The notes under the pieces: generated by a model | Told to the model about the DNA's origin: nothing | The model's input: the letters and a program-made list of their open reading frames with translations, nothing else | Databases searched by the model: none | Translations under genes and position numbers: made by a program | Shown: in pieces, positions 2,887-22,279 of the stretch | Position numbering within the stretch: position 1 is the stretch's first letter | Layout of the letters: each line of letters begins with the position of its first letter | NCBI GenBank assembly: GCA_963204975.1 | Contig: CAUJJC010000138.1 | Coordinates: forward strand, 1 to 35,180 | Direction: 5' to 3' | DNA: 35,180 nt | Source: Verrucomicrobiota bacterium | GTDB lineage: Bacteria; Verrucomicrobiota; Verrucomicrobiia; Verrucomicrobiales; Verrucomicrobiaceae

Positions 2887-4527
2887 ATGTATTCCAACGA
2901 AGAGTATATCCTCACACTTCTCCAGGAAGCCGGCATTGTCGGCGACAAAGAAATCGCCAATGCCAAGGGCCTGAAAAAGCCCGCCGAGACCCTGCTCGAG
3001 GCCATGATCAAATCGGGCATCATCAATGACGAGCAGGTGGCCCAGACGCTCGCGGTCAATTCGGGCATGGAGTTCGTTGATCTTCATGGCTATGTGACCA
3101 ACCCGGATATCAAAGCGGTAGTCCCCGAGGAAGTCGCCCGCCGCTACAAGGTCGCCCCACTGGGCATCGGGGCCTCAGGTTCCTTGCAAATTGCCGTTTC
3201 GGACCCCTATGATTTCGAAACACTGGACGCCCTGCCTCACGTCTTGCAGCCTGACATTGAATTCTTCTGCTCCACGCCAAACCTTATCCGCGCGCTGAAT
3301 TCGAATCTCTACGGCAACGAAGAAGAAATCACCAAGGCCTTGGGTCAAGACGGCGATGCCCCGGTCATTCGACTTTGCCAGAATATCCTTTTCGAAGCCG
3401 TGAAAAACCGCGCTTCCGATATTCACATCGAGCCACTCGAGAAGGACGTGCGTATTCGCTACCGCATCGATGGTGTGCTTCATGACGTGGAGCATCACCC
3501 AAAGCGCCTGCTCTCCTCCATCATCGCCCGCTACAAAATTTTGACCGGCTCGATGAACATCGACGAAAAGCGAGTCCCACAGGACGGTCGAATTCAGACA
3601 AAGTATCAGGACAAGGAACTCGACCTGCGCGTCTCGATGATTCCCACCAATCACGGCGAGAGCGTGGTCATGCGTATTTTGGACAAATCGGGGCTGCGTC
3701 TCGGCTTGTCGGACCTCGGCTTCCTCTCCGATGACCAGGAGAACTTCGAAAAGCTCATCACCCTGCCAGATGGCATCATTCTGGTGACTGGGCCCACGGG
3801 TTCGGGAAAGACGACCACCCTTTATTCCTGTCTGAACTTCATCAACCGTCCTGACCGCAAGATCATCACGGTGGAAGATCCCGTCGAGTATCAGTTGGCG
3901 GGGATTAATCAGGTCATGGTTAAGGAAGACGTTGGGATGACCTTCGCCGCCGCTCTCCGCTCCATGCTTCGTCAGGCACCGAACATCATCATGATCGGTG
4001 AGATTCGTGACCTTGAAACCGCCTCGATCGCTATCAACGCCTCGCTCACGGGGCACTTGGTCTTCAGCACGCTGCATACCAATGATGCCCCGAGCGCCGT
4101 CGCACGTCTCGCGGACATCGGCATCAAGCCTTTCCTCATTTCCTCAGCCGTCCGTGCCATCATGGCCCAGCGACTGGTCCGCAAGCTCTGCAACGACTGC
4201 AAGACTCCCAGCGCCCTTGGAGAGAAGGAACTCCGCGCGCTGCGCATCGACGCCAGCCAGGCGCTCGAGGCCAGCATCATGCAGCCCAATGGATGTAACC
4301 GCTGCCGCAAGGCTGGCTTCCGCGGACGTCTCGCCCTCATCGAGATCCTCACCATGGATGACGAAGTGCGCGGCATGATCAATCAGGAACTCACCACCCC
4401 GCAGATCCGCAAACGCGCCCGCGAACTCGGTATGAGAACTCTGCGCGAAGATGGCGTCCGCAAGGTTCTCGCAGGCATGACCACCGCCGAGGAAGTCATT
4501 GAGGCCACCATGGGCGACGCGGACTAA
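2887..4527 (+). CDS. PilB/GspE-family assembly ATPase (first of two)
   Basis: Cytoplasmic hexameric ATPase driving pilus or pseudopilus assembly, 546 aa. It has an N-terminal GspE-N/MshEN-type region (~1-140), then the N2 domain (ASDIHIEP near 176-183; RVPQDGRI near 229-236). Walker A GPTGSGKT is at 302-309, the Asp box VEDPVEY at 329-335, Walker B around IMIGEIRD (368-375) and the His box TGHLVFSTLHTND at 388-400. C435/C438 and C470/C473 form the usual zinc-binding tetracysteine. The segment normally RQDPD before Walker B is RQAPN here (362-366), so it departs from its neighbour. The start follows a CT-rich leader with no Shine-Dalgarno site. It is first in an operon with a second ATPase, a platform protein and a pseudopilin. 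PilB and GspE cannot be told apart without context. Confidence 0.93.
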   Translation: MYSNEEYILTLLQEAGIVGDKEIANAKGLKKPAETLLEAMIKSGIINDEQVAQTLAVNSGMEFVDLHGYVTNPDIKAVVPEEVARRYKVAPLGIGASGSLQIAVSDPYDFETLDALPHVLQPDIEFFCSTPNLIRALNSNLYGNEEEITKALGQDGDAPVIRLCQNILFEAVKNRASDIHIEPLEKDVRIRYRIDGVLHDVEHHPKRLLSSIIARYKILTGSMNIDEKRVPQDGRIQTKYQDKELDLRVSMIPTNHGESVVMRILDKSGLRLGLSDLGFLSDDQENFEKLITLPDGIILVTGPTGSGKTTTLYSCLNFINRPDRKIITVEDPVEYQLAGINQVMVKEDVGMTFAAALRSMLRQAPNIIMIGEIRDLETASIAINASLTGHLVFSTLHTNDAPSAVARLADIGIKPFLISSAVRAIMAQRLVRKLCNDCKTPSALGEKELRALRIDASQALEASIMQPNGCNRCRKAGFRGRLALIEILTMDDEVRGMINQELTTPQIRKRARELGMRTLREDGVRKVLAGMTTAEEVIEATMGDAD

Positions 4528-4626
4528 TACATGAACGCTGAAGGTGAAGCCTGAAATCAACTTCGCTTCGCCCTTCACGCCGTCACAGTTTCATCCTTCA
4601 TATTTTACCTTTCATACTTCTATTCC

Positions 4627-6288
4627 ATGACTGCACAGAACGTAGTGGACATGCTCAAGGCACGAGGCGTCATCGACGAAGGCGTCGCCTATGACATCTC
4701 GCATGAGGCCGTCGAAGGCGGCAAAGACATCCTCCAGGTCATCCTCGATTTTGGCGTGTTCAACTCTGAGGATGAATTCTGGGCTCTCGTGGCCGAGGAA
4801 ATCGGAGCCGAGCACTTCGATCTGGCCACCTTCGAGCCTCCGCCCGAGTTGATCGCCGTCATGCCGGCAGCAATGGCCAAGCTCTACGGAGCCTTCCCCA
4901 TCAGCCTTGATGCGAAGAGCATGCACGTCGCTTTCACAGATCCGCTCAACCCGCAATTGCTGGAAGACCTGCGCTTCTCCCTGGGCAAGGACATTGTGCC
5001 CGTCGTCGCTCGTAAATCTCAGGTGCAGGGCTTGATCGACAAACACTACGGCACCAGCTCCGGCGGCTTCGATGAGATCTTCAAGCAACTCGGCCTCGCC
5101 GCCGAAAAGACCAAGGAAGAGGCCGACCCAAACTCTGCCCCAATCGTCCGGTTCGTTGATCTCGTGCTGACCCAGGCCATCAAAGAAAAGGCGAGTGACA
5201 TTCACTTTGAGCCCTTCGAAACCGAGTTCAAGATTCGCTACCGCGTGGACGGAGCCCTCTATGAAATGGCACCGCCACCTGTGCATCTGGCCAATTCGAT
5301 CATCTCGCGCGTCAAGGTCATGTCCAACATGAATATTGCCGAGCGACGTGTCCCACAGGATGGCCGCATCATGACCACTTGTGATGGACGACCTGTGGAC
5401 ATGCGCGTCTCTTCATTGCCCACCCAGCATGGCGAGTCTGTAGTGCTCCGCGTGCTTGATCGCTCATCCATTCAGCTCACGCTCACCGATCTCGGTATGA
5501 GCGACTATCTGGACAACTACATCCGCACCACCATCCACAAGCCCAATGGCATCTTCATCGTCACGGGCCCCACGGGCGCTGGCAAGACGACCACGCTCTA
5601 CGCTGCACTTCGTGAGATCAATACCATCGACGCGAAGCTGCTGACCGCCGAAGACCCGGTGGAATATGAATTGGACGGCATCATGCAGGTGCCTGTTAAT
5701 GACGCCGTCGGCCTCACCTTTGCCAGAGCGCTCCGCGCCTTCCTTCGTCAGGACCCAGACCGAATTATGGTGGGCGAAATGCGTGACCTTGAAACCGCCC
5801 AGATCGCCATTCAGGCATCACTCACAGGCCACTTGGTGCTCAGCACCCTGCATACTAATGATGCTGCGGGAGCCGTGACCCGTCTCGTCGATATGGGCGT
5901 GGAGCCCTTCCTCGTAGCAGCCACACTCGAAGGCGTGCTCGCCCAGCGTCTTCTGCGCACCATCTGCAAAAACTGCAAGACCTCCTACGACCCCAGCCAG
6001 CACATCCTTAACCAGCTCGGACTCACCAGCCACGACACCCAAGGGAAGCAATTTTTCACTGGTGCCGGCTGCCCGACCTGCGGCAACACGGGCTACAAGG
6101 GCAGAAAAGGCCTTTTCGAACTGCTCGATATGAATGACACCCTGCGCGACATGGTGACCAAGAAGGCCCCCTCGCTCACCCTCAAGCAAAAAGCCATCGA
6201 ACTGGGGATGACGACCCTGCGCGAGGATGGTATCCGCAATATCTTCGATGGCATCACCACCATTGAGGAAGTCCTGAAATACACCTGA
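4627..6288 (+). CDS. PilB/GspE-family assembly ATPase (second of two)
   Basis: A 553-residue paralogue of the preceding gene, separated by 99 bp. It has an N-terminal MshEN-like region, ASDIHFEP (189-196), RVPQDGRI (241-248), Walker A GPTGAGKT at 314-321, the Asp box AEDPVEYE (341-348), and RQDPDRIMVGEMRD at 374-387 with the standard acidic residues kept. The His box is TGHLVLSTLHTND. Two CxxC pairs (CKNCKTS and CPTCGNTGYKGR) form the zinc site. All catalytic elements look intact. Tandem assembly ATPases could serve two filament types, or one could be specialised. No PilT-type retraction ATPase is present in the window. The start is an ATG after a CT-rich leader. Confidence 0.94.
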   Translation: MTAQNVVDMLKARGVIDEGVAYDISHEAVEGGKDILQVILDFGVFNSEDEFWALVAEEIGAEHFDLATFEPPPELIAVMPAAMAKLYGAFPISLDAKSMHVAFTDPLNPQLLEDLRFSLGKDIVPVVARKSQVQGLIDKHYGTSSGGFDEIFKQLGLAAEKTKEEADPNSAPIVRFVDLVLTQAIKEKASDIHFEPFETEFKIRYRVDGALYEMAPPPVHLANSIISRVKVMSNMNIAERRVPQDGRIMTTCDGRPVDMRVSSLPTQHGESVVLRVLDRSSIQLTLTDLGMSDYLDNYIRTTIHKPNGIFIVTGPTGAGKTTTLYAALREINTIDAKLLTAEDPVEYELDGIMQVPVNDAVGLTFARALRAFLRQDPDRIMVGEMRDLETAQIAIQASLTGHLVLSTLHTNDAAGAVTRLVDMGVEPFLVAATLEGVLAQRLLRTICKNCKTSYDPSQHILNQLGLTSHDTQGKQFFTGAGCPTCGNTGYKGRKGLFELLDMNDTLRDMVTKKAPSLTLKQKAIELGMTTLREDGIRNIFDGITTIEEVLKYT

Positions 6289-13215: not shown

Positions 13216-14019
13216 ATGCCAAAAATTAAGACCAACGGAATCGAAATGAACTACCAGGAGCGCGGCTCCGGTGATCCCCTCATCTGCATCATGGGCGTGA
13301 CGGCGCCTGGCGGCGTCTGGGACGCTCATGCCCAAGCCTGGGAAAAGCACTTCCGCTGCATCCTTGGCGACAACCGCGGCGTCGGTGAAACCGACAAGCC
13401 CGAAGGTCCCTATACCACCGACATGATGGCCGATGACTACGCCGGACTCATGGACGCACTCGGCATCAAGAAAGCCCGCGTCGTCGGTTGCTCGCTCGGT
13501 TCGGTCATCGCGCAGAAGCTAGCACTTCGTCATCCCGACAAGGTGCAGTCCGCCATTCTCATGTGTTCCTGGGCACGCCAGGATCGCTTCGGCCTCTACA
13601 CCTGGCAGCACCTCAAGAAGGCCAAGGCCAACATGCGCCCCGAGGACTTCATGCAGTGGATCCAGATGCTCATCTTCACCAAGCCCTGGTTCGATAACGA
13701 CGACTGCTGGAACAACATGCAGCAAGGCCTCAAAGACGCCGCGCTCAATCCCGCGCCGCAGCCCCTGCACGCCACCGAAGCCCAGAGCGATGCCGCCATC
13801 ACGCATAACACGCTCAACGACCTGAAGAATATCCAGTGCCCCGTGCTCGTCATCGGCGGCAAGAATGATACTTTCACTCCCGCGTGGATGAGCGAGGAAG
13901 TCGCCGCCGGTATCCCGAATAGCGACCTGCATCTCTATGACAATGCAGGCCACGCCTTCCACTGGGAATGCCTGAGCGACTTCAATCCGCGCACGACGGA
14001 GTGGTTGCTCAAGCACTAG
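13216..14019 (+). CDS. Alpha/beta-fold hydrolase
   Basis: A 267-residue hydrolase of about the usual family length. The nucleophile elbow GCSLGS places Ser93. The catalytic acid is probably Asp218 (GGKNDTFTP) and the base His246 (NAGHAFHWE). The lid region near 120-185 is rich in Trp and Met (WQHLKKAKANMRPEDFMQW). DNRGVGETDKP near 52-62 is the canonical DxRGxGxS/TD segment. There is no signal peptide, so it is cytosolic. Substrate is unknown; esterase, lactonase and epoxide or haloalkane hydrolase relatives share this layout. The gene ends 10 nt inside the stop-proximal part of the opposing ferritin-like gene and is followed at once by a strong terminator. Confidence 0.92.
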   Translation: MPKIKTNGIEMNYQERGSGDPLICIMGVTAPGGVWDAHAQAWEKHFRCILGDNRGVGETDKPEGPYTTDMMADDYAGLMDALGIKKARVVGCSLGSVIAQKLALRHPDKVQSAILMCSWARQDRFGLYTWQHLKKAKANMRPEDFMQWIQMLIFTKPWFDNDDCWNNMQQGLKDAALNPAPQPLHATEAQSDAAITHNTLNDLKNIQCPVLVIGGKNDTFTPAWMSEEVAAGIPNSDLHLYDNAGHAFHWECLSDFNPRTTEWLLKH

Positions 14020-14794
14020 CCGCCATCGTCCTTTCGAGAGCGCTCCCGGTCGCCTGGGAGCGCTCTTCTTGTTTAGCCCTCACATCCAGCTTGAACATGA
14101 AGCGCCCGAACTGCCGCCACGCCTCGTGGTAGAAGCGTGCCGTCGTCACCCCCATGGTGCGCAGACACTTACCGTGACTAATCCACAGCACCGTCGCTGC
14201 CAAACTTCCGCTCAGCACAAACTGCGCACGCCACAGCAGCCGCTTCAAGCCCCTGCCCGGCGCACCCGAGCAGTGCAGCCGGTCGTTCTGAAAGGCCACA
14301 TGCCCAGCCTCGTCACGAAGGATGAGGGAGCACACATCCCGCACCGCCGGATCTTCACAGTGACGCAACAGCAGCCAGTAGTAGGCCGTGCTCGATAGCT
14401 CGGTCAGCGTCAGGATTTGCAGCTCAAACTTCACGCCCAGCACCTTTCGGAGGTAGCAGAACAGGCTGAAGCTCCAGTGGTCCTCAATCGGGATCACGCC
14501 GAAGCGCAACAGCAGTCCGCCGAGCAATCGGGAGTGCTCCTTCTCCTCCTCGAACCACAAGTCGATCACCTCATCGAGCCCCGTCTGGCTCTCCCGATAG
14601 GTAGCCACGTTCCAGGCGATGAGCGAGGCAGGCCCGCCACCGTCTCCCAGTTGAAACTCCTTCAGCGACTGCTCCAGCAGCAGCCTCGCCTCCGGCTTCA
14701 CCTTGATGGGTGCATCCCATCGGGGCTCCAGGCGATTGAGTTTGTTGTGACGGAAGAAGGCGACCCACTTGGCGGTGTTGAGTTGTGTTTTCAT
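14009..14794 (-). CDS. Ferritin-like (di-iron) protein, last gene of the metal-efflux operon
   Basis: 261 aa. Ferritin-type iron ligands are recognisable: Glu46, E84-x-x-H87 (EEKEH), Glu132 (LTELSSTAYY) and E162-x-x-H165 (DEAGH), spaced as in a four-helix di-iron bundle. Two hydrophobic stretches (LTELSSTAYYWLLL and LSGSLAATVLWISHG) suggest a helical bundle with a possible membrane-facing part. It lies 75 bp after the small Cys-rich gene on the same strand as the RND pump, so it is probably transcribed with it. Its role could be iron or redox chemistry linked to metal stress. It could equally be an oxygenase of unknown substrate. The 3' end carries the terminator of the opposing hydrolase gene within its coding sequence. 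Confidence 0.78.
   Translation of the reverse strand: MKTQLNTAKWVAFFRHNKLNRLEPRWDAPIKVKPEARLLLEQSLKEFQLGDGGGPASLIAWNVATYRESQTGLDEVIDLWFEEEKEHSRLLGGLLLRFGVIPIEDHWSFSLFCYLRKVLGVKFELQILTLTELSSTAYYWLLLRHCEDPAVRDVCSLILRDEAGHVAFQNDRLHCSGAPGRGLKRLLWRAQFVLSGSLAATVLWISHGKCLRTMGVTTARFYHEAWRQFGRFMFKLDVRAKQEERSQATGSALERTMAASA
14037..14074 (+). terminator. Rho-independent terminator of the alpha/beta hydrolase gene
   Basis: A perfect 11-bp stem, AGAGCGCTCCC (14037-14047) with GGGAGCGCTCT (14056-14066), closes an 8-nt loop. TCTTGTTT follows. It starts 18 bp after the hydrolase stop. The same bases encode residues near the C-terminus of the opposing ferritin-like protein. The minus-strand reading has no T-rich tail, so it should mainly stop plus-strand transcription. 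Confidence 0.82.
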
Positions 14795-14869
14795 GACGAC
14801 CCGACGCTGCGCCCCGGGCCGTCACAACTCAAATGAAGTGCCTGTGAAATCGGCGTGAAGACAAGGCCA

Positions 14870-15307
14870 TCACTTCTTCTCAGGCTCGCATTTACACAGC
14901 CACTCAGCAGCCTTGCAGCCTTCACATATCTCCGTGTTGTATTCCAGGCGGGCAGTGATGGCTTTGCTCTTGGGGCTTTCTTTGAACTGAAGGATCAGCC
15001 AGTCACCGGCCTTCACCAGGGAGACCACGAAGCCCTTGGCGTCCTTGCTGACTTCAAGCTTTTTGGGGTCATTGCGATCACCCGTGATGGCCGTGAGACT
15101 TTGTTCGGCGAGTGCGACAGGTTTCATGTCCTTATCGAGCACGGCAATGTGGAACTTGTCACCCTTCACGGTGACTTCTCCGTGCATGGTTTCGTCCTTG
15201 CTGAACTCGAGGATGCGTCCGCCATTGGGACCACGTTCGACACCGCTGTGTCCGAAGGAGATGGCAGTGATGAGAGTGAGGAGGAGGGTGGTGAGTTTGG
15301 TTTTCAT
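14870..15307 (-). CDS. Small periplasmic metal-efflux accessory protein with Cys-rich tail
   Basis: 145 aa with a signal peptide (MKTKLTTLLLTLITAISFGHS). GPNGGRILEF near 26-35 resembles the GPHGGRLLE segment in the N-terminal metal-associated domain of some CusB/CzcB proteins, so this may be a free-standing version of that domain. The C-terminus has C128, C131, C138 and C140 (CEGC ... CKC), a plausible soft-metal site. It lies 39 bp after the RND pump gene on the same strand. The likely role is periplasmic metal binding or delivery to the efflux complex; this is inferred from context and residues. No catalytic motif is seen. Confidence 0.72.
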   Translation of the reverse strand: MKTKLTTLLLTLITAISFGHSGVERGPNGGRILEFSKDETMHGEVTVKGDKFHIAVLDKDMKPVALAEQSLTAITGDRNDPKKLEVSKDAKGFVVSLVKAGDWLILQFKESPKSKAITARLEYNTEICEGCKAAEWLCKCEPEKK

Positions 15308-15346
15308 GGATGTAGCTGTGTTTGTCTGTTTGGTTGGGGTGATTAT

Positions 15347-18300
15347 TCACTGCGCGGCAGGTGCATTGAAACGCACTGCGTGTTCCGCCGCGCGCTTGCC
15401 GAAGAGCCAGAAGGCAGCGGGGGTGACGAGGATGTCCAGCAGGGTGCTGCTGACGAGGCCGCCGCAGATGACGACGGCGACGGGGTGCAGGATTTCTTTG
15501 CCCGGCTCATGCGCGGCGAGCACGAGCGGGATCAAGGCAATGCCGGCGCTGAGCGCGGTCATCAGCACGGGCACGAGGCGTTCCAGTGTGCCGCGCACGA
15601 TCATCCCACGAGAGAAGGTTTCGCCTTCGTGCTTCATGAGGTGCAGGTAATGGCTGATCATCATGATGCCGTTGCGCGCGGCGACGCCGCCGACGGCGAT
15701 GAAGCCGACAAGCGTGGCGATGCTGATGTTATTAATGAGCAGCCAGGTGAGGGCGAGGCTGCCCATGAGCGCGAGGGGAATATTGATGAGCACCTGCGCG
15801 GCGAGCATGGCGCTGCGGAAATAGCCATAGAGCAACATGCAGATGACGCCGAAGACGAGGATGGAGAACAAGCCGATGCGCTTCGCCGCCTCTTGCTGCG
15901 CGAGGTATTCGCCCTCGAAGCGGAAGTAGTAGCCCTCGGGCATTTTCACTTTCTCGCGCACCTGCTTCTCCCAGGTCTGCACGAGGGACTCGAGATCACG
16001 AACGCTGGTATTGGCACCGATGACGATGCGGCGTTGTGTGTTCTCTCGGTTGATGACGTTCGGTCCTTTGCTCTCGCGGATGTCGGCAACGAGGCGCAAG
16101 GGAATGCGCCGTGCGCCGCCGGTTTCAATGAGCAGCTCACCAAGTCGCGCGGGTGAATCGCGCCACTCCGCAGGCAGTCGAAGCACGAGGTCAATGGTGC
16201 GCTGGCCCTCGCGCAACTCCGCTAAAGTGCGGCCACCGAGCAGGGCGCTGACTTGTTCATTGATCGCTCCGGGCTGCACGCCGTAGGCGAGTGCGCGTTC
16301 GCGGTTCACTTCGATCTTGAGCTGCGGGATGGGCACCTGGGCTTCGAGGTTCACATCCGTGAGGCCAGGGATACTCTTGCCGATGTCGCGGATCTGCGCG
16401 CCTTTCTCGCGCAGCACATCGAGATCGGGGCCGAATATCTTCACCGCGATCTTGGAACTCACGCCGCTGAGCATGTGGCTGAGACGATGGCTGATGGGCT
16501 GGCCGACATTGACGAAGGTGCCGGGCACGCTACGCAGCTTGTCGCGGATCTCTTTGAAGACCTCGGCGCGCGGGCGTCCACCCTCATGGAACTCGACATC
16601 GAACTCATTCACGCTCACGGGCATGACGTGGTCATCGCGCTCGGCACGTCCGGCGCGGCGGCCCACGCTTTTCACTTCGGGTATGCTCTGCAACAAACGC
16701 ACGCCAATCTCGCCGACCTCGTTGGACTGCTGCAACGAAGTGCCCGGTGCGCTGGCGAAGGAGATGGTGGCACTGCCTTCATTGAAGGTGGGCAGGAACT
16801 CCTTGCCCATCCGTGGATACAGCATCAGCGAGGCAACGAGCATCATCCCCACCAGCGCAAGCACCAGCAGCGGCGCGCTGAGCGAGAGGCGTAGCGCTGT
16901 GTGGCGGCACAGCCATTTCAACAGGCGCACGATGGGGCCATCACTGTGCGCCTTGCCTGCTTTGGGCCGGAGCAACAGCGAGCACAGCACGGGAATGACG
17001 GTGAGCGATACAACGAAGGATGCAGCCATGCTGACGATGGTGGCGATGGCGATGGGTGTGAAGAGCCGACCTTCGAGTCCTTCCAATCCAAGCAACGGCA
17101 GGAACACGAGCACGATGATGAGCGTGGCGTAGAGGATGGAATTGCGCACCTCGCCAGAGGCGCGCGCGATCACTTCCAGCGGTGGTCGCGGCTCAGGCAG
17201 CGACGCATTCTCGCGCAGCCTTCGAAAGACATTCTCCACATCCACAATCGCATCATCCACCACCATGCCGATGGCGACGGCGAGGCCGCCGAGCGTCATG
17301 GAGTTCACACTGACACCGAACCATTTGAACGTGAGCACCGTGATCGCGAACGAGAGCGGCATGGCGGTGAGCGTGATCGCCGTGGTGCGGAAGTTCAGCA
17401 GAAAGAGAAACAGCACGATGGTCACCATGATCGCGCCATCGCGGATGGCTTCCTTGAGGTTACCGATGGCGTGGCTGATGAAGTCACCCTGGCGGAACAT
17501 CAGTTCAATCGTGACTCCGGGCGGCAGCGTGGGTCTCAGTTCTTCGAGTGCCTGCTCCACCAAGGCGGTGAGCTTGAGCGTGTCAAAGCCCGGCGCTTTA
17601 TCGAGGCTGAGCACCACGCCCATCGTGCCATTCACGCTGGCGTCGCCGCGCATCACTTGCACGGCGTAGTCCACCTTTGCCACATCGCGCACCAGCACAG
17701 GCCGGTCGCCGATGGTCTTGATGACGGTGCGCCCGATGTCGTCGAGGCTCGTGGTCATGCCGAGATTGCGCACCATGATCTCTTGCGGACCAGATTGCAG
17801 GTAGCCGCTGGTGGCATTGCCCGCTGCATTGGTCACAGCGGCTTCGAGTTCAGCAAAGGACACCCCATTGGCCGTGAGTCGATGCGGGTCAGGCTGCACC
17901 TGAATCTGCTTCACGCCGCCGCCGATGGTCAGCACCTCGGCTACGCCACTGAGACTTTGCAGCCGACGACGAATTGTCCAATCCGCCAGCGTGCGCAGAT
18001 CCATCGGCGAGATGTAATCAGGCTCGCCCGGCTTCTTCGTGCAGCGCAGACCGACGAGCAAAATCTCGCCCATGAGCGATGACACGGGCGTCATGCCGGG
18101 CGTCACATCCTTTGGCAAGGTGCCGAGCACGGATTGCACTCGCTCCTGCACGAGTTGTCGCGCACGGTAGATGTCCGTGCCCCACGCGAACTCGGCGAAC
18201 ACGAGGGAGAGACCCACGTCCGAGTTCGAGCGCAAGCGGTCGAGTCCACCGACACCTTGCACCGCGCCTTCGAGCGGTTGCGTGACGAGTGTTTCGACTT

Positions 18301-18478
18301 CCTCGGGCGCGAGGCCGGGACACTCGGTCAGGATTGTGACCGTCGGCTTCGTCATATCCGGCAGCACTTCCACTGGAAGGTTCGTCACCGTCTGATACCC
18401 GAAGACGACCAACAGCAACGACGCCATCAGCACGAGGGGCCGATGATGCAGGGAGAAGCGGATGAGGTTGTTCAGCAT
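15347..18478 (-). CDS. CzcA/CusA-family heavy-metal RND efflux pump
   Basis: 1043 aa, the usual size of the inner-membrane pump of tripartite heavy-metal exporters. It starts with TM1 (LVLMASLLLVVFGYQTV) and continues with PVEVLPDMTKPTVTI and CPGLAPEEVE, hallmarks of HME-RND proteins. Two large periplasmic loops and two six-helix bundles follow (TALPLSFAIT..., GMVVDDAIVDVENVF, RMGKEFLPTFNEGSATI, GFIAVGGVAARNGIMMISH). The TM4 proton-relay segment reads VDDAIVDVEN. From memory, Zn/Co pumps tend to have DGA and Cu/Ag pumps DAA there, so the exported ion cannot be assigned. The gene starts 4 bp after the membrane-fusion gene, so it is tightly co-expressed. It works with the membrane-fusion and TolC-type proteins of the same operon. 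Confidence 0.96.
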   Translation of the reverse strand: MLNNLIRFSLHHRPLVLMASLLLVVFGYQTVTNLPVEVLPDMTKPTVTILTECPGLAPEEVETLVTQPLEGAVQGVGGLDRLRSNSDVGLSLVFAEFAWGTDIYRARQLVQERVQSVLGTLPKDVTPGMTPVSSLMGEILLVGLRCTKKPGEPDYISPMDLRTLADWTIRRRLQSLSGVAEVLTIGGGVKQIQVQPDPHRLTANGVSFAELEAAVTNAAGNATSGYLQSGPQEIMVRNLGMTTSLDDIGRTVIKTIGDRPVLVRDVAKVDYAVQVMRGDASVNGTMGVVLSLDKAPGFDTLKLTALVEQALEELRPTLPPGVTIELMFRQGDFISHAIGNLKEAIRDGAIMVTIVLFLFLLNFRTTAITLTAMPLSFAITVLTFKWFGVSVNSMTLGGLAVAIGMVVDDAIVDVENVFRRLRENASLPEPRPPLEVIARASGEVRNSILYATLIIVLVFLPLLGLEGLEGRLFTPIAIATIVSMAASFVVSLTVIPVLCSLLLRPKAGKAHSDGPIVRLLKWLCRHTALRLSLSAPLLVLALVGMMLVASLMLYPRMGKEFLPTFNEGSATISFASAPGTSLQQSNEVGEIGVRLLQSIPEVKSVGRRAGRAERDDHVMPVSVNEFDVEFHEGGRPRAEVFKEIRDKLRSVPGTFVNVGQPISHRLSHMLSGVSSKIAVKIFGPDLDVLREKGAQIRDIGKSIPGLTDVNLEAQVPIPQLKIEVNRERALAYGVQPGAINEQVSALLGGRTLAELREGQRTIDLVLRLPAEWRDSPARLGELLIETGGARRIPLRLVADIRESKGPNVINRENTQRRIVIGANTSVRDLESLVQTWEKQVREKVKMPEGYYFRFEGEYLAQQEAAKRIGLFSILVFGVICMLLYGYFRSAMLAAQVLINIPLALMGSLALTWLLINNISIATLVGFIAVGGVAARNGIMMISHYLHLMKHEGETFSRGMIVRGTLERLVPVLMTALSAGIALIPLVLAAHEPGKEILHPVAVVICGGLVSSTLLDILVTPAAFWLFGKRAAEHAVRFNAPAAQ

Positions 18479-18482
18479 AGGA

Positions 18483-19601
18483 TCATGCCTCCGCTGGTTT
18501 GCGCTTCACCATCATGCTCACGATCAATAGCACCAACAAAAGCCCCGTGCTGGCCACGAAGAAGATCGTCATCTGATTCCACTCCGAGCCGTGGGCGTGA
18601 TCGTGATCATCGCCACCTTGCGCGGCGAGTTGCTCCGCCGTCATCTCGGTGCCGTCTTCGTTGTGCGGATGGCCATGCGCGGCATCGAGGGCTTCCTTGA
18701 GCGAGACGCTGCCTTTACCCGCGAAAGCGAGCGAGTAGGCACCTTTCGTTACCACTTCATCGCCAGGCAGGAGGCCAGACTTCACCTCGACAAACTCATG
18801 GTTTTCCTCGCCGAGTTGCACGGGCGTTTTCATGAAGGCGTGCTTCAAATCGTAGTCCTTGATATAGACGAATCGGTTCGCCACATCGCCCTGCACGGCG
18901 GCGCGGGGGATGCTCATCACGTTCTCACGCGCGCCGGTCACGATGCTGAACTCCGCGCGCATCTCCGGGCGCAGGAGCAGCTCTTCATTGGGCACATGGA
19001 AGGCGGCCTCGATGGTGCCACTCTCGCCATCTGCATACGCTCCGATGTGATTTAGTTCCGCCTCGAAGACTTTCCCCGCGAAGCCCGGCACGCGGATGTG
19101 CGCCTTGATGCCCTTCTTTAGCTTCGATGCCAGATGTTCCGGCACATGCGCGCTGGCTTCCACCACGCTCAGATCCACGATCTCGATCAGCGAGTCGTCC
19201 GGTGACACCGGCTGGCCGATGGCGATGTTCACCTTCGTGATGATGCCCGAGATGGGAGCCTCCAGCATCACCTTCGGCGGCGGATCGCCGGGCTGGCGAC
19301 TCTCCACCCACATCAGTTCCTCGTTCTCATCCACCTTTTGATCCGGCAGCGCGAGCACCGAATACGCGCGTCCTGGAATGCGGCTACTGACCACGGCACG
19401 CTTGCCCGGCAGCACCTCAATGCGACCAAGCGCAAAGATCGTCTCTTCAAACGTGGTCTCCTCGGCTTCGACGGTCTCGATACCGAGGTTCTTTTCGCCT
19501 ACCTCATCGAGGATGACGAGGTTGTCTTTGCGTGCGGCATCGCCAGCCGCCGCCATCAGGAGGCATGGGCAGAGGACGAGCATCAGTCTTTTGAAATACA
19601 T
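18483..19601 (-). CDS. Membrane-fusion (CusB/CzcB-like) protein with His-rich segment and C-terminal TM anchor
   Basis: 372 aa from the ATG at 19601. An upstream extension of the frame overlaps the DUF3147 gene and is rejected. The N-terminus is a signal peptide or lipoprotein-like leader (LMLVLCPCLLMAAAG). The adaptor body contains the barrel-sandwich halves (VVSSRIPGRAYSV near 70-82; LEAPISGIITKVNIAIGQPV near 113-132) and the beta-barrel/MPD region (RPEMRAEFSIVTG, VMSIPRAAV, VEVKSGLLPGDEVVTKGAYSL). Two features are unusual: six His within ~30 residues (309, 311, 313, 333, 335, 337) and a hydrophobic helix at ~343-365 followed by KRKPAEA. The helix predicts a second anchor to the inner membrane. 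The adaptor links the RND pump to the outer-membrane channel. Confidence 0.9.
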   Translation of the reverse strand: MYFKRLMLVLCPCLLMAAAGDAARKDNLVILDEVGEKNLGIETVEAEETTFEETIFALGRIEVLPGKRAVVSSRIPGRAYSVLALPDQKVDENEELMWVESRQPGDPPPKVMLEAPISGIITKVNIAIGQPVSPDDSLIEIVDLSVVEASAHVPEHLASKLKKGIKAHIRVPGFAGKVFEAELNHIGAYADGESGTIEAAFHVPNEELLLRPEMRAEFSIVTGARENVMSIPRAAVQGDVANRFVYIKDYDLKHAFMKTPVQLGEENHEFVEVKSGLLPGDEVVTKGAYSLAFAGKGSVSLKEALDAAHGHPHNEDGTEMTAEQLAAQGGDDHDHAHGSEWNQMTIFFVASTGLLLVLLIVSMMVKRKPAEA

Positions 19602-19615
19602 GGGGAAAGAGAGGA

Positions 19616-19966
19616 TCAGAGTTTCACACCTGCTGCATCGAGCAGGCGCATGGTTAGCCAGTAGAGGCCGATGGAGAGCACGATGCCCGCACCCAGTGCA
19701 GGCCAGAAGGCACCGAGCTTCCTGATCAGCCATGGCATGAGCAGAAACATCGGCAGTGTGGGCAACACGAACCAGAAGGTGCCATAGGCATGGCGTCCGA
19801 TGAGCGCGGCATCCTTGGTCTCGGAATAAAGCCAAATGAAGGCGAGCAAGGAGGTGAGCGGAAGGGAATGCACGATGCTGGCAAGCAGATTGTTTTTCTT
19901 CGCCAGTTCAGAGACGACGACGATGACTACTCCGCTGATGAAGGCTTTGGTGATGAGCAAATACAT
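19616..19966 (-). CDS. DUF3147-like small integral membrane protein
   Basis: 116 aa with four predicted hydrophobic helices: AFISGVVIVVVSEL, IVHSLPLTSLLAFIWLY, FWFVLPTLPMFLLMPWLI and FWPALGAGIVLSIGLYWLTM. Size, helix pattern and the early S-E-L-A-K-K segment match DUF3147 proteins, whose function is unknown. It sits between the TolC-type and membrane-fusion genes with gaps of 20 and 14 bp, so it is part of the efflux operon. A helper role in assembly or membrane insertion is possible but unsupported by motif. Confidence 0.8.
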   Translation of the reverse strand: MYLLITKAFISGVVIVVVSELAKKNNLLASIVHSLPLTSLLAFIWLYSETKDAALIGRHAYGTFWFVLPTLPMFLLMPWLIRKLGAFWPALGAGIVLSIGLYWLTMRLLDAAGVKL

Positions 19967-19986
19967 GGCTTGAGATATTGGGTGAG

Positions 19987-21198
19987 TTACTTGGTTCGAA
20001 TGGTTACCGGTGAGTGCTGGCCAGTCGTGGTTTCGAAGCGGATGCGTGCGAGATGGAAGTCGCGCACAGCATCCAGCGCTGAGGCTTCAATGAGCAACTG
20101 CTGAACCCGCGCCCGCAGCACGGCTAACAACTCAGCCTGACCGCTTTCGTAGGCTTTCTCGAGATTCGCAGTTTGCTCGGTAACGAGCGGCAGCAGCTTG
20201 TCCCGCGAATCACGCGCCAGTGCGATATGCACATTCATTTCCTCGCGCGCAGCCTCGGCCTCACCAGCGATGCTCTTTCCCAGAGCTTCGGCCTCCAACG
20301 ATGCCCGTTGTGCGCTGACCGACTTCTCCTCGATCTCGCCTTCGTTGCGATTCCACCACGGCAAGGGCACAGACACGCGGATGCCCACCGATCCCGTGTG
20401 CTCAGAGTCCTGCCTTTCGTGGGTGCCGAAGATGCCTGCGGTGGCGTCGTGCCACTTTTTCGATTTCGCGAGGTCGATGCTGGTCTGCGCAGCCCGCACC
20501 TTGGCCAGAGCAAGCTGGTAGTCAGCACGTTGCTGCCACGATGTGACGGCAGGCAGCTTCATCGCTGGCAGTTCGCCTGAGAAATCGAGAGACTCCTGCG
20601 GATTGAGGCCGAGCAAGGGCTTTAGTTTGCCGGTCAAGACAACGCGTTCGGCCTCGAGTTTGCGAGACTCAACCGCGAGACGTTGAGCATCAAGATGCGC
20701 CTGCGCTGCATCAAGCGCGCTGAGTTCGCCAGCCTTCGCACGACTGGCAATGAAGTCCGCGAGCTTGGTTGCGAGCGCTGCCTGCTGATCACGCAGTGCC
20801 CGCTGCTGCTTCAGCGCGAGGAGTTGCACGGCCAGCGCCTGGGCATCGCCAATGAGCTGGCGCGAGACATCGCACACCTCGAGTTCCGCAGCGGCAACGA
20901 GTTCTGCACTGAGTTGCTTTTCCAACTGCAAGCGTCGCGTGAGAGGAAACGGCTGGTCGATGGAGAAGGTGGTCGCCTGCGGGCTCACGCGGCTCTCGCC
21001 AGTGAATTCGAGGCCTATCGTGGGATTCTCCAGTCGGCCTGCGGCAAGCTGGCGCGCTCTGGCTTCGCTGATGGCGAGACGCGCAGCCTTGAGTTGCGGA
21101 TGCGAGCTGCGGACACGCACAGGAATATCATCGAGAGAAAGGGTGAAAGCCGATGCCTGCGACACGCAAGCGAGCATAAGTATCAATTTGAGTTTCAT
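19987..21198 (-). CDS. TolC-family outer-membrane efflux channel (CusC/CzcC-like)
   Basis: 403 aa with signal peptide MKLKLILMLACVSQASA. The body is long, Ala/Gln/Glu/Arg-rich and helical, in two similar halves as in TolC proteins: SSHPQLKAARLAISEARARQLAAGRLENPTIG near the start, the beta-strand FTGESRVSPQATTFSIDQPFPL, then VGIRVSVPLPWWNRNEGEIEE, the typical second-repeat strand turn. It is slightly short for the family but complete. It provides the outer-membrane exit for the RND pump encoded downstream. A ~105-bp structured gap separates it from the Cys/His-rich gene upstream. Confidence 0.93.
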   Translation of the reverse strand: MKLKLILMLACVSQASAFTLSLDDIPVRVRSSHPQLKAARLAISEARARQLAAGRLENPTIGLEFTGESRVSPQATTFSIDQPFPLTRRLQLEKQLSAELVAAAELEVCDVSRQLIGDAQALAVQLLALKQQRALRDQQAALATKLADFIASRAKAGELSALDAAQAHLDAQRLAVESRKLEAERVVLTGKLKPLLGLNPQESLDFSGELPAMKLPAVTSWQQRADYQLALAKVRAAQTSIDLAKSKKWHDATAGIFGTHERQDSEHTGSVGIRVSVPLPWWNRNEGEIEEKSVSAQRASLEAEALGKSIAGEAEAAREEMNVHIALARDSRDKLLPLVTEQTANLEKAYESGQAELLAVLRARVQQLLIEASALDAVRDFHLARIRFETTTGQHSPVTIRTK

Positions 21199-21252
21199 GA
21201 GGCGAAGAGAGTTTGAGAGGCGGGCACGGATCTACCGTGCGATGCGCGATGA

Positions 21253-21298
21253 CTTCACAAGCCAGCCAACAACGTCCTGCGAGACGTGGGCTGTGAAG
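21253..21298 (-). promoter_or_regulatory. Structured spacer inside the efflux operon
   Basis: A long imperfect hairpin lies between the Cys/His-rich gene and the TolC-type gene. CTTCACA (21253-21259) pairs with TGTGAAG (21292-21298). GCC (21261-21263) pairs with GGC (21289-21291). ACGTC (21272-21276) pairs with GACGT (21283-21287). A second hairpin, GCACGG/CCGTGC, is at 21224-21240. There is no T-tract, so it is not a normal terminator. mRNA processing or stability control is possible. Confidence 0.4.
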
Positions 21299-21303
21299 CT
21301 CTC

Positions 21304-21747
21304 TCAAATCCTCAATTCAATCGTATGCGCCAGCAGCGCTGGCCATCGTCGTGGCGGATCGCCTGGGTAATCAGTGGGGAGGGCTGGACGACAAACAGTC
21401 GCCAACGCTGCATCTGAAATCGACCTCGGCACCCAAATTGTGGCCCAGACCGACTGAGCAAAAACAGGCTCGGTCACCGATGATTGTCTGGCGAGGATCT
21501 TCTCCTTCACCTCTGGATGATCGTGGGTCTCCTCGCAGCCTCCATGGCCAGCACCGCAGGGCAAAGCCTCGGCTACTCCATGATCATGGCAGGCGTCATC
21601 ATCAGGGCCATGGCAATGATCAGCCAGCGTCACTTGAGGAGTGCCCCCACATTCGCACAGATACCCACGATGAATCCCGGCAGTCTGCGCCCATGCGATC
21701 GCCACGACCGTGACGAACAACAACATCTGGCGTAGTGAGAGACTCAT
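21304..21747 (-). CDS. Secreted or membrane-anchored Cys/His-rich protein, first gene of the efflux operon
   Basis: 147 aa from the ATG at 21747. The N-terminus is a signal or anchor (LRQMLLFVTVVAIAWAQTAG). A dense metal-ligand region follows: C31-x-C33 (CECGG), H44/C45/H46, C53/H54/H56, C64, H68, C71, H75 and H77. The C-terminus (VCRPALPTDYPGDPP ... LLAHTIELRI) has Pro-rich and hydrophobic parts. It has no enzyme motif. As the promoter-proximal gene of a heavy-metal RND operon it is best explained as an extracytoplasmic metal binder or sensor. An upstream in-frame extension would overlap the thioesterase side and is less likely. The start lies beside two crossing dyads. Confidence 0.72.
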   Translation of the reverse strand: MSLSLRQMLLFVTVVAIAWAQTAGIHRGYLCECGGTPQVTLADHCHGPDDDACHDHGVAEALPCGAGHGGCEETHDHPEVKEKILARQSSVTEPVFAQSVWATIWVPRSISDAALATVCRPALPTDYPGDPPRRWPALLAHTIELRI

Positions 21748-21749
21748 GA

Positions 21750-21810
21750 CAGATGGCCATGCTGCTCTCTGTGGGGCGATCTTCAACATGAATCTGCCAT
21801 CTGGCCCCAC
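21750..21810 (-). promoter_or_regulatory. Two crossing perfect dyads upstream of the efflux operon
   Basis: CAGATGGC (21750-21757) is complementary to GCCATCTG (21796-21803). GTGGGGC (21771-21777) is complementary to GCCCCAC (21804-21810). The arms alternate A-B-A'-B', so both can form together only as a pseudoknot, or one at a time as alternative hairpins. In minus-strand RNA the last arm ends 2 nt before the ATG at 21747, so it could cover the translation start. As DNA they could be operator half-sites. There is no homology evidence. Confidence 0.45.
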
Positions 21811-21856
21811 ACGCGATCAGGTTGCAGCAGCACTCCGGGCCGCTATGGAGCGCGGC

Positions 21857-22279
21857 ATGATGATTTCCCTCGGCAAAACCAAGTTCACCACCGAGCTGCA
21901 AGTGCGGCCTGATGACATCGACCTCTTCCGCCACGTCCACAGCAGCAAGTATCTCGATTATGTGCTCGCGGCGCGCTTCGACCAGATGGAGCGTTGCTAT
22001 GGCATGTCGATGCAAACCTTCCTGGATCGTGGGCTCGGCTGGGTGGTGAAGGTCTCACACCTCGAATACAAACGAGCACTCGGCATCGCCGAGAAATTCC
22101 ACGTCACCACCTGGATCGAAGACGTGCGCGGCAGCGATGTGGAGGTGCGCTTTGACATCACGAAGGCCGACACCAACAAAACCGCCTGCACGGGCTGGTG
22201 CGTCTTCACCTTGATCTCCCTCACCACCACACGGCCAGAGCCGATCCCGGAAGAAGTGATGGCAAAGTATGGGATTTGA
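21857..22279 (+). CDS. Hot-dog-fold acyl-CoA thioesterase (YbgC/FadM-like)
   Basis: 140 aa from the ATG at 21857. LQVRPDDIDLFRHVHSSKYLDYVLAAR matches the 4HBT family signature, in which the Asp of DxDxxxHV contacts substrate and catalysis (here DIDLFRHV). The following FDQMERCYGMSM ... VSHLEYKR ... FHVTTWIEDV ... VEVRFDITKAD pattern is the hot-dog strand layout. It should be a small cytosolic tetrameric thioesterase acting on an acyl-CoA or acyl-ACP. The chosen start has GGAG seven bases upstream, one of the few Shine-Dalgarno-like sites in the window. Starts at 21788 and 21845 are alternatives, the former with the CT-rich leader typical of neighbours. It is divergent from the metal-efflux operon and functionally unrelated. 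Confidence 0.85.
   Translation: MMISLGKTKFTTELQVRPDDIDLFRHVHSSKYLDYVLAARFDQMERCYGMSMQTFLDRGLGWVVKVSHLEYKRALGIAEKFHVTTWIEDVRGSDVEVRFDITKADTNKTACTGWCVFTLISLTTTRPEPIPEEVMAKYGI

Follow-up and report, generated by a model that had tools for sequence, protein, structure and literature searches.

A candidate six-gene metal-export operon of Verrucomicrobiaceae, possibly controlled in cis through a covarying RNA stem at the stop codon of its first gene

Results

The locus and its genes

The window analysed here is one entire contig of 35,180 nucleotides (CAUJJC010000138.1, assembly GCA_963204975.1; 6.18 Mb in 369 contigs, 87.6% complete) from a Verrucomicrobiota bacterium of the family Verrucomicrobiaceae. 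We focus on seven minus-strand open reading frames (ORFs) between positions 14009 and 21747, built around a heavy-metal efflux (HME) pump of the resistance-nodulation-division (RND) family, and on the leader RNA between the first gene and the second. This RNA holds a covarying pairing, stem P1, that is conserved across loci and lies on the stop codon of the first gene. Six of the seven genes form a conserved verrucomicrobial cassette, which we read, with a probability of about one half, as a metal-export operon of Verrucomicrobiaceae under the cis control of its first gene.

ORF calls and family scans agree with an original prediction, made from the DNA letters alone, on the seven genes, their coordinates and their order. 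The first gene (21304-21747) encodes a Cys/His-rich, putatively exported leader protein of 147 residues with seven Cys and nine His, which we propose as a nascent metal sensor. It is followed by genes for a TolC/CzcC-type outer-membrane channel (19987-21198; PF02321, E-value 7.8e-28, 98 bits against a cut-off of 22), a 116-residue DUF3147 membrane protein with three transmembrane (TM)-like stretches (19616-19966; NCBIfam NF006749/PRK09272, 124.6 bits against 119), a periplasmic adaptor (18483-19601; TIGR01730, 126 bits against 95), an HME-type RND pump (15347-18478; TIGR00914 CusA/CzcA, 800.4 bits against a curated cut-off of 701.45) and a small protein with a leader-like N-terminus and a C-x2-C-x6-C-x-C tail, hereafter the Cys-tail protein (14870-15307). 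The seventh gene, for a ferritin-like di-iron protein (14009-14794), is probably a neighbour outside the system. The DUF3147 protein has no match in a Pfam-A scan, and its relatives on plasmids carry the annotation 'DUF3147 family protein'. The tight spacing originally described holds for the core genes, with gaps of 20, 14, 4 and 39 nucleotides from the channel gene to the Cys-tail gene, and does not extend to the first and last genes, which are set apart by 105 and 75 nucleotides, respectively.

As predicted, none of the seven genes encodes a DNA-binding regulator, a P-type ATPase or CusF. Nor does any regulator recur beside 20 related operons, a result that rests on recurrence among the flanking ORFs rather than on scanning each of them for families. 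A search for sigma-70-like promoters in 13900-22000 returned none (shuffled sequences expect 1.5), and the sole match of an Rfam scan is a tRNA at 2597-2681.

A covarying stem between the leader stop codon and the tolC start

The 5' arm of P1 consists of the last codons and the stop codon of the leader ORF (21301-21314), which can form 14 pairs with a 3' arm (21203-21219) that ends four nucleotides before the tolC ATG. In the minimum-energy fold the stem encloses two hairpins within 21220-21299, P2 at 21252-21299 and P3 at 21220-21247. The hairpin after the leader stop recurs, in many relatives with a CACGA loop, and its stem sequences differ.

Pairing was assessed by summing the duplex energies between the stop arm and the tolC-start arm of each locus and comparing this sum with those obtained after swapping partners between loci. 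In a first set of 18 loci (22 before deduplication), the own sum was -289.0 against a swapped mean of -232.9 (standard deviation 12.4; z -4.5, 0 of 20000 permutations), and 11 shifted-arm controls gave z values from -2.8 to +0.7. A second set, fetched later and comprising 18 independent loci (from 20), gave -319.0 against -248.0 (z -5.5, 0 of 20000), with eight shifted controls between -0.3 and +1.1. Merging the 36 loci raised the signal to z -7.6 (0 of 50000 permutations). In 25 of the 36, the own pairing scored better than the swap with the locus whose 5' arm is closest (p 0.003); its median rank was 6.5 among 36. Pair types vary at many positions of P1, several of which show A-U, G-C and C-G types; since the pairs were chosen by the duplex program, the weight rests on the permutation test.

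The first intergenic RNA of a Cupriavidus sp. P-10 operon is likewise folded (z -2.7), with a fold unlike P1. In the open-licence PubMed Central literature we found the CutF and CruR papers and no description from Verrucomicrobiota; within that literature, the covarying leader RNA is so far unreported.

In the leader protein itself, hydropathy shows a hydrophobic stretch at the N-terminus. The protein also has a Cys/His cluster, and conservation is poor in its middle and good at its C-terminal end. In the main subgroup this end reads W-P-x2-[LM]...[IV]-x-L-R-[IV]-stop.

Conservation of the cassette

We chose 20 loci of the family, with a close adaptor match as criterion. TolC, adaptor and RND genes are each present in all 20, as is the Cys-tail gene, the Cys/His leader in 19, and the DUF3147 gene in 13, eight times between the TolC and adaptor genes and five times after the Cys-tail gene. 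These counts support the prediction of a metal-efflux operon: it is of the heavy-metal RND type, and its small accessory proteins are conserved. Protein searches of 67 family genomes found the Cys-tail protein in 59, leader relatives in 56 and adaptor-type proteins in 67, the last count including remote adaptors. Among 288 genomes from across the phylum, 34 have a match to the Cys-tail profile, and an RND gene lies directly upstream on the same strand in all 30 Cys-tail loci returned; the leader profile matches seven of 288, all within its own family.

The genome that contains the window has 10 RND-family matches above the cut-off. In it, a second, paralogous operon type (G000:C85) carries a tandem arrangement of two RND genes together with leader, TolC, adaptor and Cys-tail genes, and a further RND and Cys-tail gene pair lies at G000:C25. 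Three family operons contain an additional gene for a protein of about 243-253 residues between adaptor and pump, without an informative Pfam match (L052:5439-6170; L069:6411-7166; L070, about 4467-5228).

The pump, its accessory proteins and the likely substrate

Pump relationships were examined in a tree of 24 rows, in which long branches were flagged and the motif of NieA stood in for NieA itself. The window pump and nine other verrucomicrobial pumps form one group (support 100/100), sister to one Bacteroidota and four proteobacterial pumps (98/96), and this 15-row clade (100/100) is separate from Ncc-, Sil- and other HME pumps. The proteobacterial pumps of the clade carry the motifs HAEGVH and HRLDH. 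These are the motifs of NieA, which belongs to nieIC-cep-nieBA of Cupriavidus neocaledonicus, described as a putative class-6 HME-RND nickel system (PMC7060636). Like NieA, the window pump has H-R-L-x-H (H664-RLS-H668, with D replaced by S in an intact H-x3-H) and the first His of HAEGVH; unlike NieA, whose nickel role is itself putative, it has Ser in place of the second His (H617-VMPV-S622). Three of the four motif histidines (H617, H664 and H668) are thus retained and the full HAEGVH motif is not. The window operon also shares with nieIC-cep-nieBA the gene order I-C-extra gene-B-A and a sister pump clade.

Other class motifs are absent from the window pump. Where the HME1/HME2 pumps (Czc, Cnr/Ncc) have DFG-x3-DGA-x3-VEN in TM helix IV (PMC3637150), it reads GGLAVAIGMVVDDAIVDVEN. 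Although the operon has the tripartite HME-RND architecture of CusCFBA and SilCBA, it has no CusF and no methionine triad, and its pump lies on a separate branch. In the HME4 test, the residues aligned with the three methionines of CusA, which we take to be copper ligands of CusA/SilA, are Ser, Val and His. Nickel or cobalt as the pump substrate is a guess from these motifs. The window pump is closer to that of genome G008 (86%) than to that of the genus mate (82%), which suggests a separate history for the cassette.

The operon of Cupriavidus sp. P-10, whose pump has the same motifs as NieA, has a weakly similar small protein after the pump (E-value 4e-5), and in Methylorubrum extorquens AM1 the pump is likewise followed by a protein weakly similar to the Cys-tail protein (E-value 0.001). 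All four Cys of the tail are invariant in 22 of 22 aligned sequences. The protein is predicted to be beta-rich: its model is a low-confidence beta-sandwich (mean predicted local distance difference test score, pLDDT, 67.8), the best fold matches (CBM56, filamin/FN3-like) have uninformative E-values of 0.01 or worse, and a profile search against solved structures gave chance-level matches only.

The adaptor ends in a His-rich stretch (HGHPH, HDHAH) and a TM-like stretch at residues 347-365, a combination that is, to our knowledge, unusual for a CzcB-type adaptor. For the DUF3147 protein, seven plasmid regions were viewed out of 90 records, and in six of them RND, CDF (cation diffusion facilitator) or P-type ATPase genes lie at most 8 kb away, Sulfuricurvum being the exception. 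We rejected the equation of DUF3147 with 'cep' for the P-10 operon: a different, 190-residue exported protein is encoded there between channel and adaptor. After that operon lies a second His-rich, proline-ended small ORF resembling its first-gene leader (L175:11669-12043). Periplasmic metal loading by the small proteins, as originally suggested, is plausible; for the first gene, the RNA evidence favours a regulatory role.

The di-iron gene and the cassette boundary

The original prediction had made the ferritin-like protein a working step of efflux and had proposed a neighbourhood search with it and with the Cys/His protein. That search upheld conservation with the pump for the Cys/His protein and not for the ferritin-like one, which stands beside a pump in one of the 20 chosen loci and in one of 80 loci from a protein search, both being the same genus mate. 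Within the fetched flanks, IspH/LytB, as a second gene of this kind, lies near di-iron relatives in 37 of the 80 loci, usually with membrane protein and winged-helix regulator first, then IspH and the di-iron protein.

Compared with the genus mate, the DNA shows a break in identity at the 75-nucleotide gap (14795-14869), which lies outside the pump operon proper. Identity is 94% for the abhydrolase gene, 88% for the di-iron gene and 97.3% for the gap, against 75, 75, 72, 75, 57 and 65% in the six genes of the cassette as listed in the comparison, 75% being the value for the Cys-tail gene at the cassette edge; a thioesterase gene beyond the cassette has 92%, and the kinase gene 74.5%. Because the di-iron gene is rarely beside a pump and identity breaks so sharply, we exclude it from the cassette.

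The gap is more alike between the window and the genus mate than the genes on either side. It contains a stable hairpin (14795-14823) that abuts the di-iron start codon (fold z -3.2 and -3.1). We rejected this hairpin as a dispersed repeat: it has a single copy in each of two genus genomes and is absent from two others. A terminator-like hairpin for the convergent abhydrolase gene (14036-14067) lies inside the end of the di-iron coding region, and the two genes overlap by 11 nucleotides.

The residues D/E51, E84, H87, E132, E162, H165 and H207 are invariant in 62 of 62 aligned rows of the di-iron family, giving the E/D, ExxH, E, ExxH ligand set on a predicted helical bundle that marks ferritin-like di-iron proteins. 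In its predicted fold (pLDDT 93.5) and these ligands the protein resembles R2-like, aldehyde-deformylating and AurF-type di-iron proteins, although identity is only 11-13%. The likeness to R2 and aldehyde-deformylating oxygenase (ADO) comes from VIA comparisons of the model (R2, Z 18.1, root-mean-square deviation 3.2 over 228 aligned residues; R2-like oxidase, 17.1; ADO, 16.6), a Foldseek search having returned nothing at an E-value of 0.001 or better. AurF (PF11583) matches 31 of the 62 rows at 0.01 or better and not the window protein, which no family model matches convincingly.

Loci L077-L087, L095, L098, L100 and L115-L148 show a recurrent, uncharacterised operon, in which genes for a membrane protein of about 220 residues and a winged-helix/ArsR-like regulator are joined by those for a short second IspH/LytB and a di-iron protein of the AurF/ADO-like kind. 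Among the 67 family genomes, the short IspH occurs in 52, the di-iron family in 51 and both in 47.

Discussion

At the core of this locus is an ordinary tripartite metal pump with well-conserved accessory genes, for which CutF-like control is our best working model. The covariation of P1, the leader peptide, the metal-type residues and the absence of a linked regulator together suggest, by analogy, CutF/CzcI-like translational control by a nascent exported metal sensor.

In this model, the leader ORF would be translated and its product exported. With little metal outside, synthesis would end, the ribosome would leave the stop codon, and P1 would form and close the tolC start. Metal bound to the Cys/His cluster while the chain is still nascent and only partly exported may make the ribosome linger at the C-terminal tail (W-P, often P-P, ...L-R-[IV]-stop). 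We infer that a ribosome terminating or resting at the stop codon would cover the 5' arm and hold the stem open, so that channel, adaptor and pump would be made. The pump would then export a divalent ion, with nickel or cobalt the likeliest candidates, while the Cys-tail protein and the His-rich tail of the adaptor may pass metal on or limit pumping; the di-iron gene would be a separate unit. The placement of the stem on the stop codon is the distinctive feature of the proposed control.

CutF of Rhodobacter capsulatus, the leader of cutFOG, is an exported copper sensor; its nascent chain holds back its own export, and a stem-loop that covers the next start can thereby open (PMC9973294). The traits given there are a Cys motif, C-terminal prolines and that stem-loop; CutF-like genes often precede RND channel genes, and some His-rich ones are tied to nickel or cobalt loci. 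Like CutF, the window leader is a short, putatively exported, Cys-bearing first gene of a metal-homeostasis operon, with prolines near the C-terminal end in most relatives and a folded RNA before the next gene. Its 147 residues fall below the CutF-like limit of 150, and tolC follows on the same strand within the allowed distance (<1000 nucleotides). Unlike CutF, the leader precedes an RND channel operon and has both Cys and His, and the pairing uses its own stop-codon region in place of a loop against the Shine-Dalgarno (SD) sequence.

Several findings weigh against the proposed control. The proline pair begins 17 residues from the C-terminal end of the window leader, outside the 15-residue filter used for CutF; seven of 42 family leaders pass this filter and 29 of 42 have the pair within 25 residues, while the genus-mate leader, of 154 residues, has none. 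Neither DUF2946 nor any other family matches the window leader at an E-value of 0.1 in Pfam and NCBIfam scans, and 21 leader family members gave no informative match, DUF2946 included, at an E-value of 1. Since the proline filter and the DUF2946 match both fail, we do not file the leader as a CutF member. Regarding the RNA, RNAalifold on a MAFFT alignment found zero consensus pairs; MAFFT misplaces the 3' half, most clearly in locus L058, and arm-pairing energies were used instead. One of the 11 shifted controls of the first set reached z -2.8, which was not seen in the second set. Own pairing is poor in some loci (rank 17 of 18 in L060, rank 10 in L053 and L055), and the fold of the window alone is modest (z -2.4 or -1.5, depending on boundaries). 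No SD sequence is evident before tolC, and the element would thus act on a start that lacks one.

P1 may instead serve mRNA processing or stability, or simply couple translation, and in this way set the leader-to-pump ratio, with the leader acting in the periplasm as CzcI does, binding metal and damping the pump. CzcI of Cupriavidus metallidurans, likened here by position and not by sequence, is a small periplasmic protein tied to its pump, encoded by the first gene of czcICBA before czcC-B-A; it damps CzcCBA for zinc and cobalt (PMC10127602), and a cleavage site within czcI upstream of czcC was inferred from transcripts. CzcI is also counted as CutF-like although, unlike most leader relatives here, it is said to have no C-terminal proline motif (PMC9973294). 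Moreover, covariation of P1 shows a conserved RNA fold and not a sensor, and the proline pair is not universal among leader tails. The position of P1, with one arm exactly on the stop codon and the other ending just before the tolC start, nevertheless suits ribosome-dependent control, and the extreme C-terminal residues of the leader are conserved where its middle is not, though RNA pairing could account for part of this. We regard this explanation as a serious possibility, albeit a somewhat unlikely one.

Another explanation concerns the metal: the pump could be a Cus-type copper/silver exporter and the leader a copper sensor as for CutF. Most cysteine-bearing CutF-like genes sit at copper loci (PMC9973294). 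The accessory proteins here are Cys-rich, and a DUF411 gene lies near the nearest plasmid pump. However, the presumed copper-ligand methionines of CusA are replaced in the window pump, which groups away from SilA and with pumps bearing putative nickel His motifs, and we find a copper or silver exporter doubtful.

The originally proposed efflux complex, in which metal is loaded in the periplasm and a di-iron enzyme contributes a step, is very improbable: the di-iron gene does adjoin the pump operon on the same strand in the window and one genus mate, yet its relatives are dominated by other contexts, identity to the genus mate changes at the gap, and the protein has no TM-like stretch. On neighbourhood and divergence, we reject the enzyme as a pump part. 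That the covariation is a by-product of base composition or kinship has been largely refuted already and is scarcely credible: the loci are related and one shifted control stood out, but the replicate shifted-arm controls on the same loci are near zero and own pairing beats the nearest-arm swap in most loci.

For the preferred reading, cis control of the six-gene operon by its first gene, the most specific form would be that the leader, as a nascent chain, senses nickel or cobalt outside the cytoplasm and, with its translation and export read through the stop-codon stem, switches on the whole RND operon without a DNA-binding regulator, in Verrucomicrobiota and perhaps in proteobacterial NieI-type operons. 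We put this forward tentatively and hold it to be unlikely in full.

Regarding annotation, the di-iron enzyme is not to be counted as a metal-resistance gene by adjacency. With the covarying P1, the model can be tested directly by swapping the arms. If true, it would offer an explanation for the control of metal pumps that have no linked regulator, and it would extend nascent-chain metal sensing at the level of translation to a phylum that the main text of the CutF paper does not mention.

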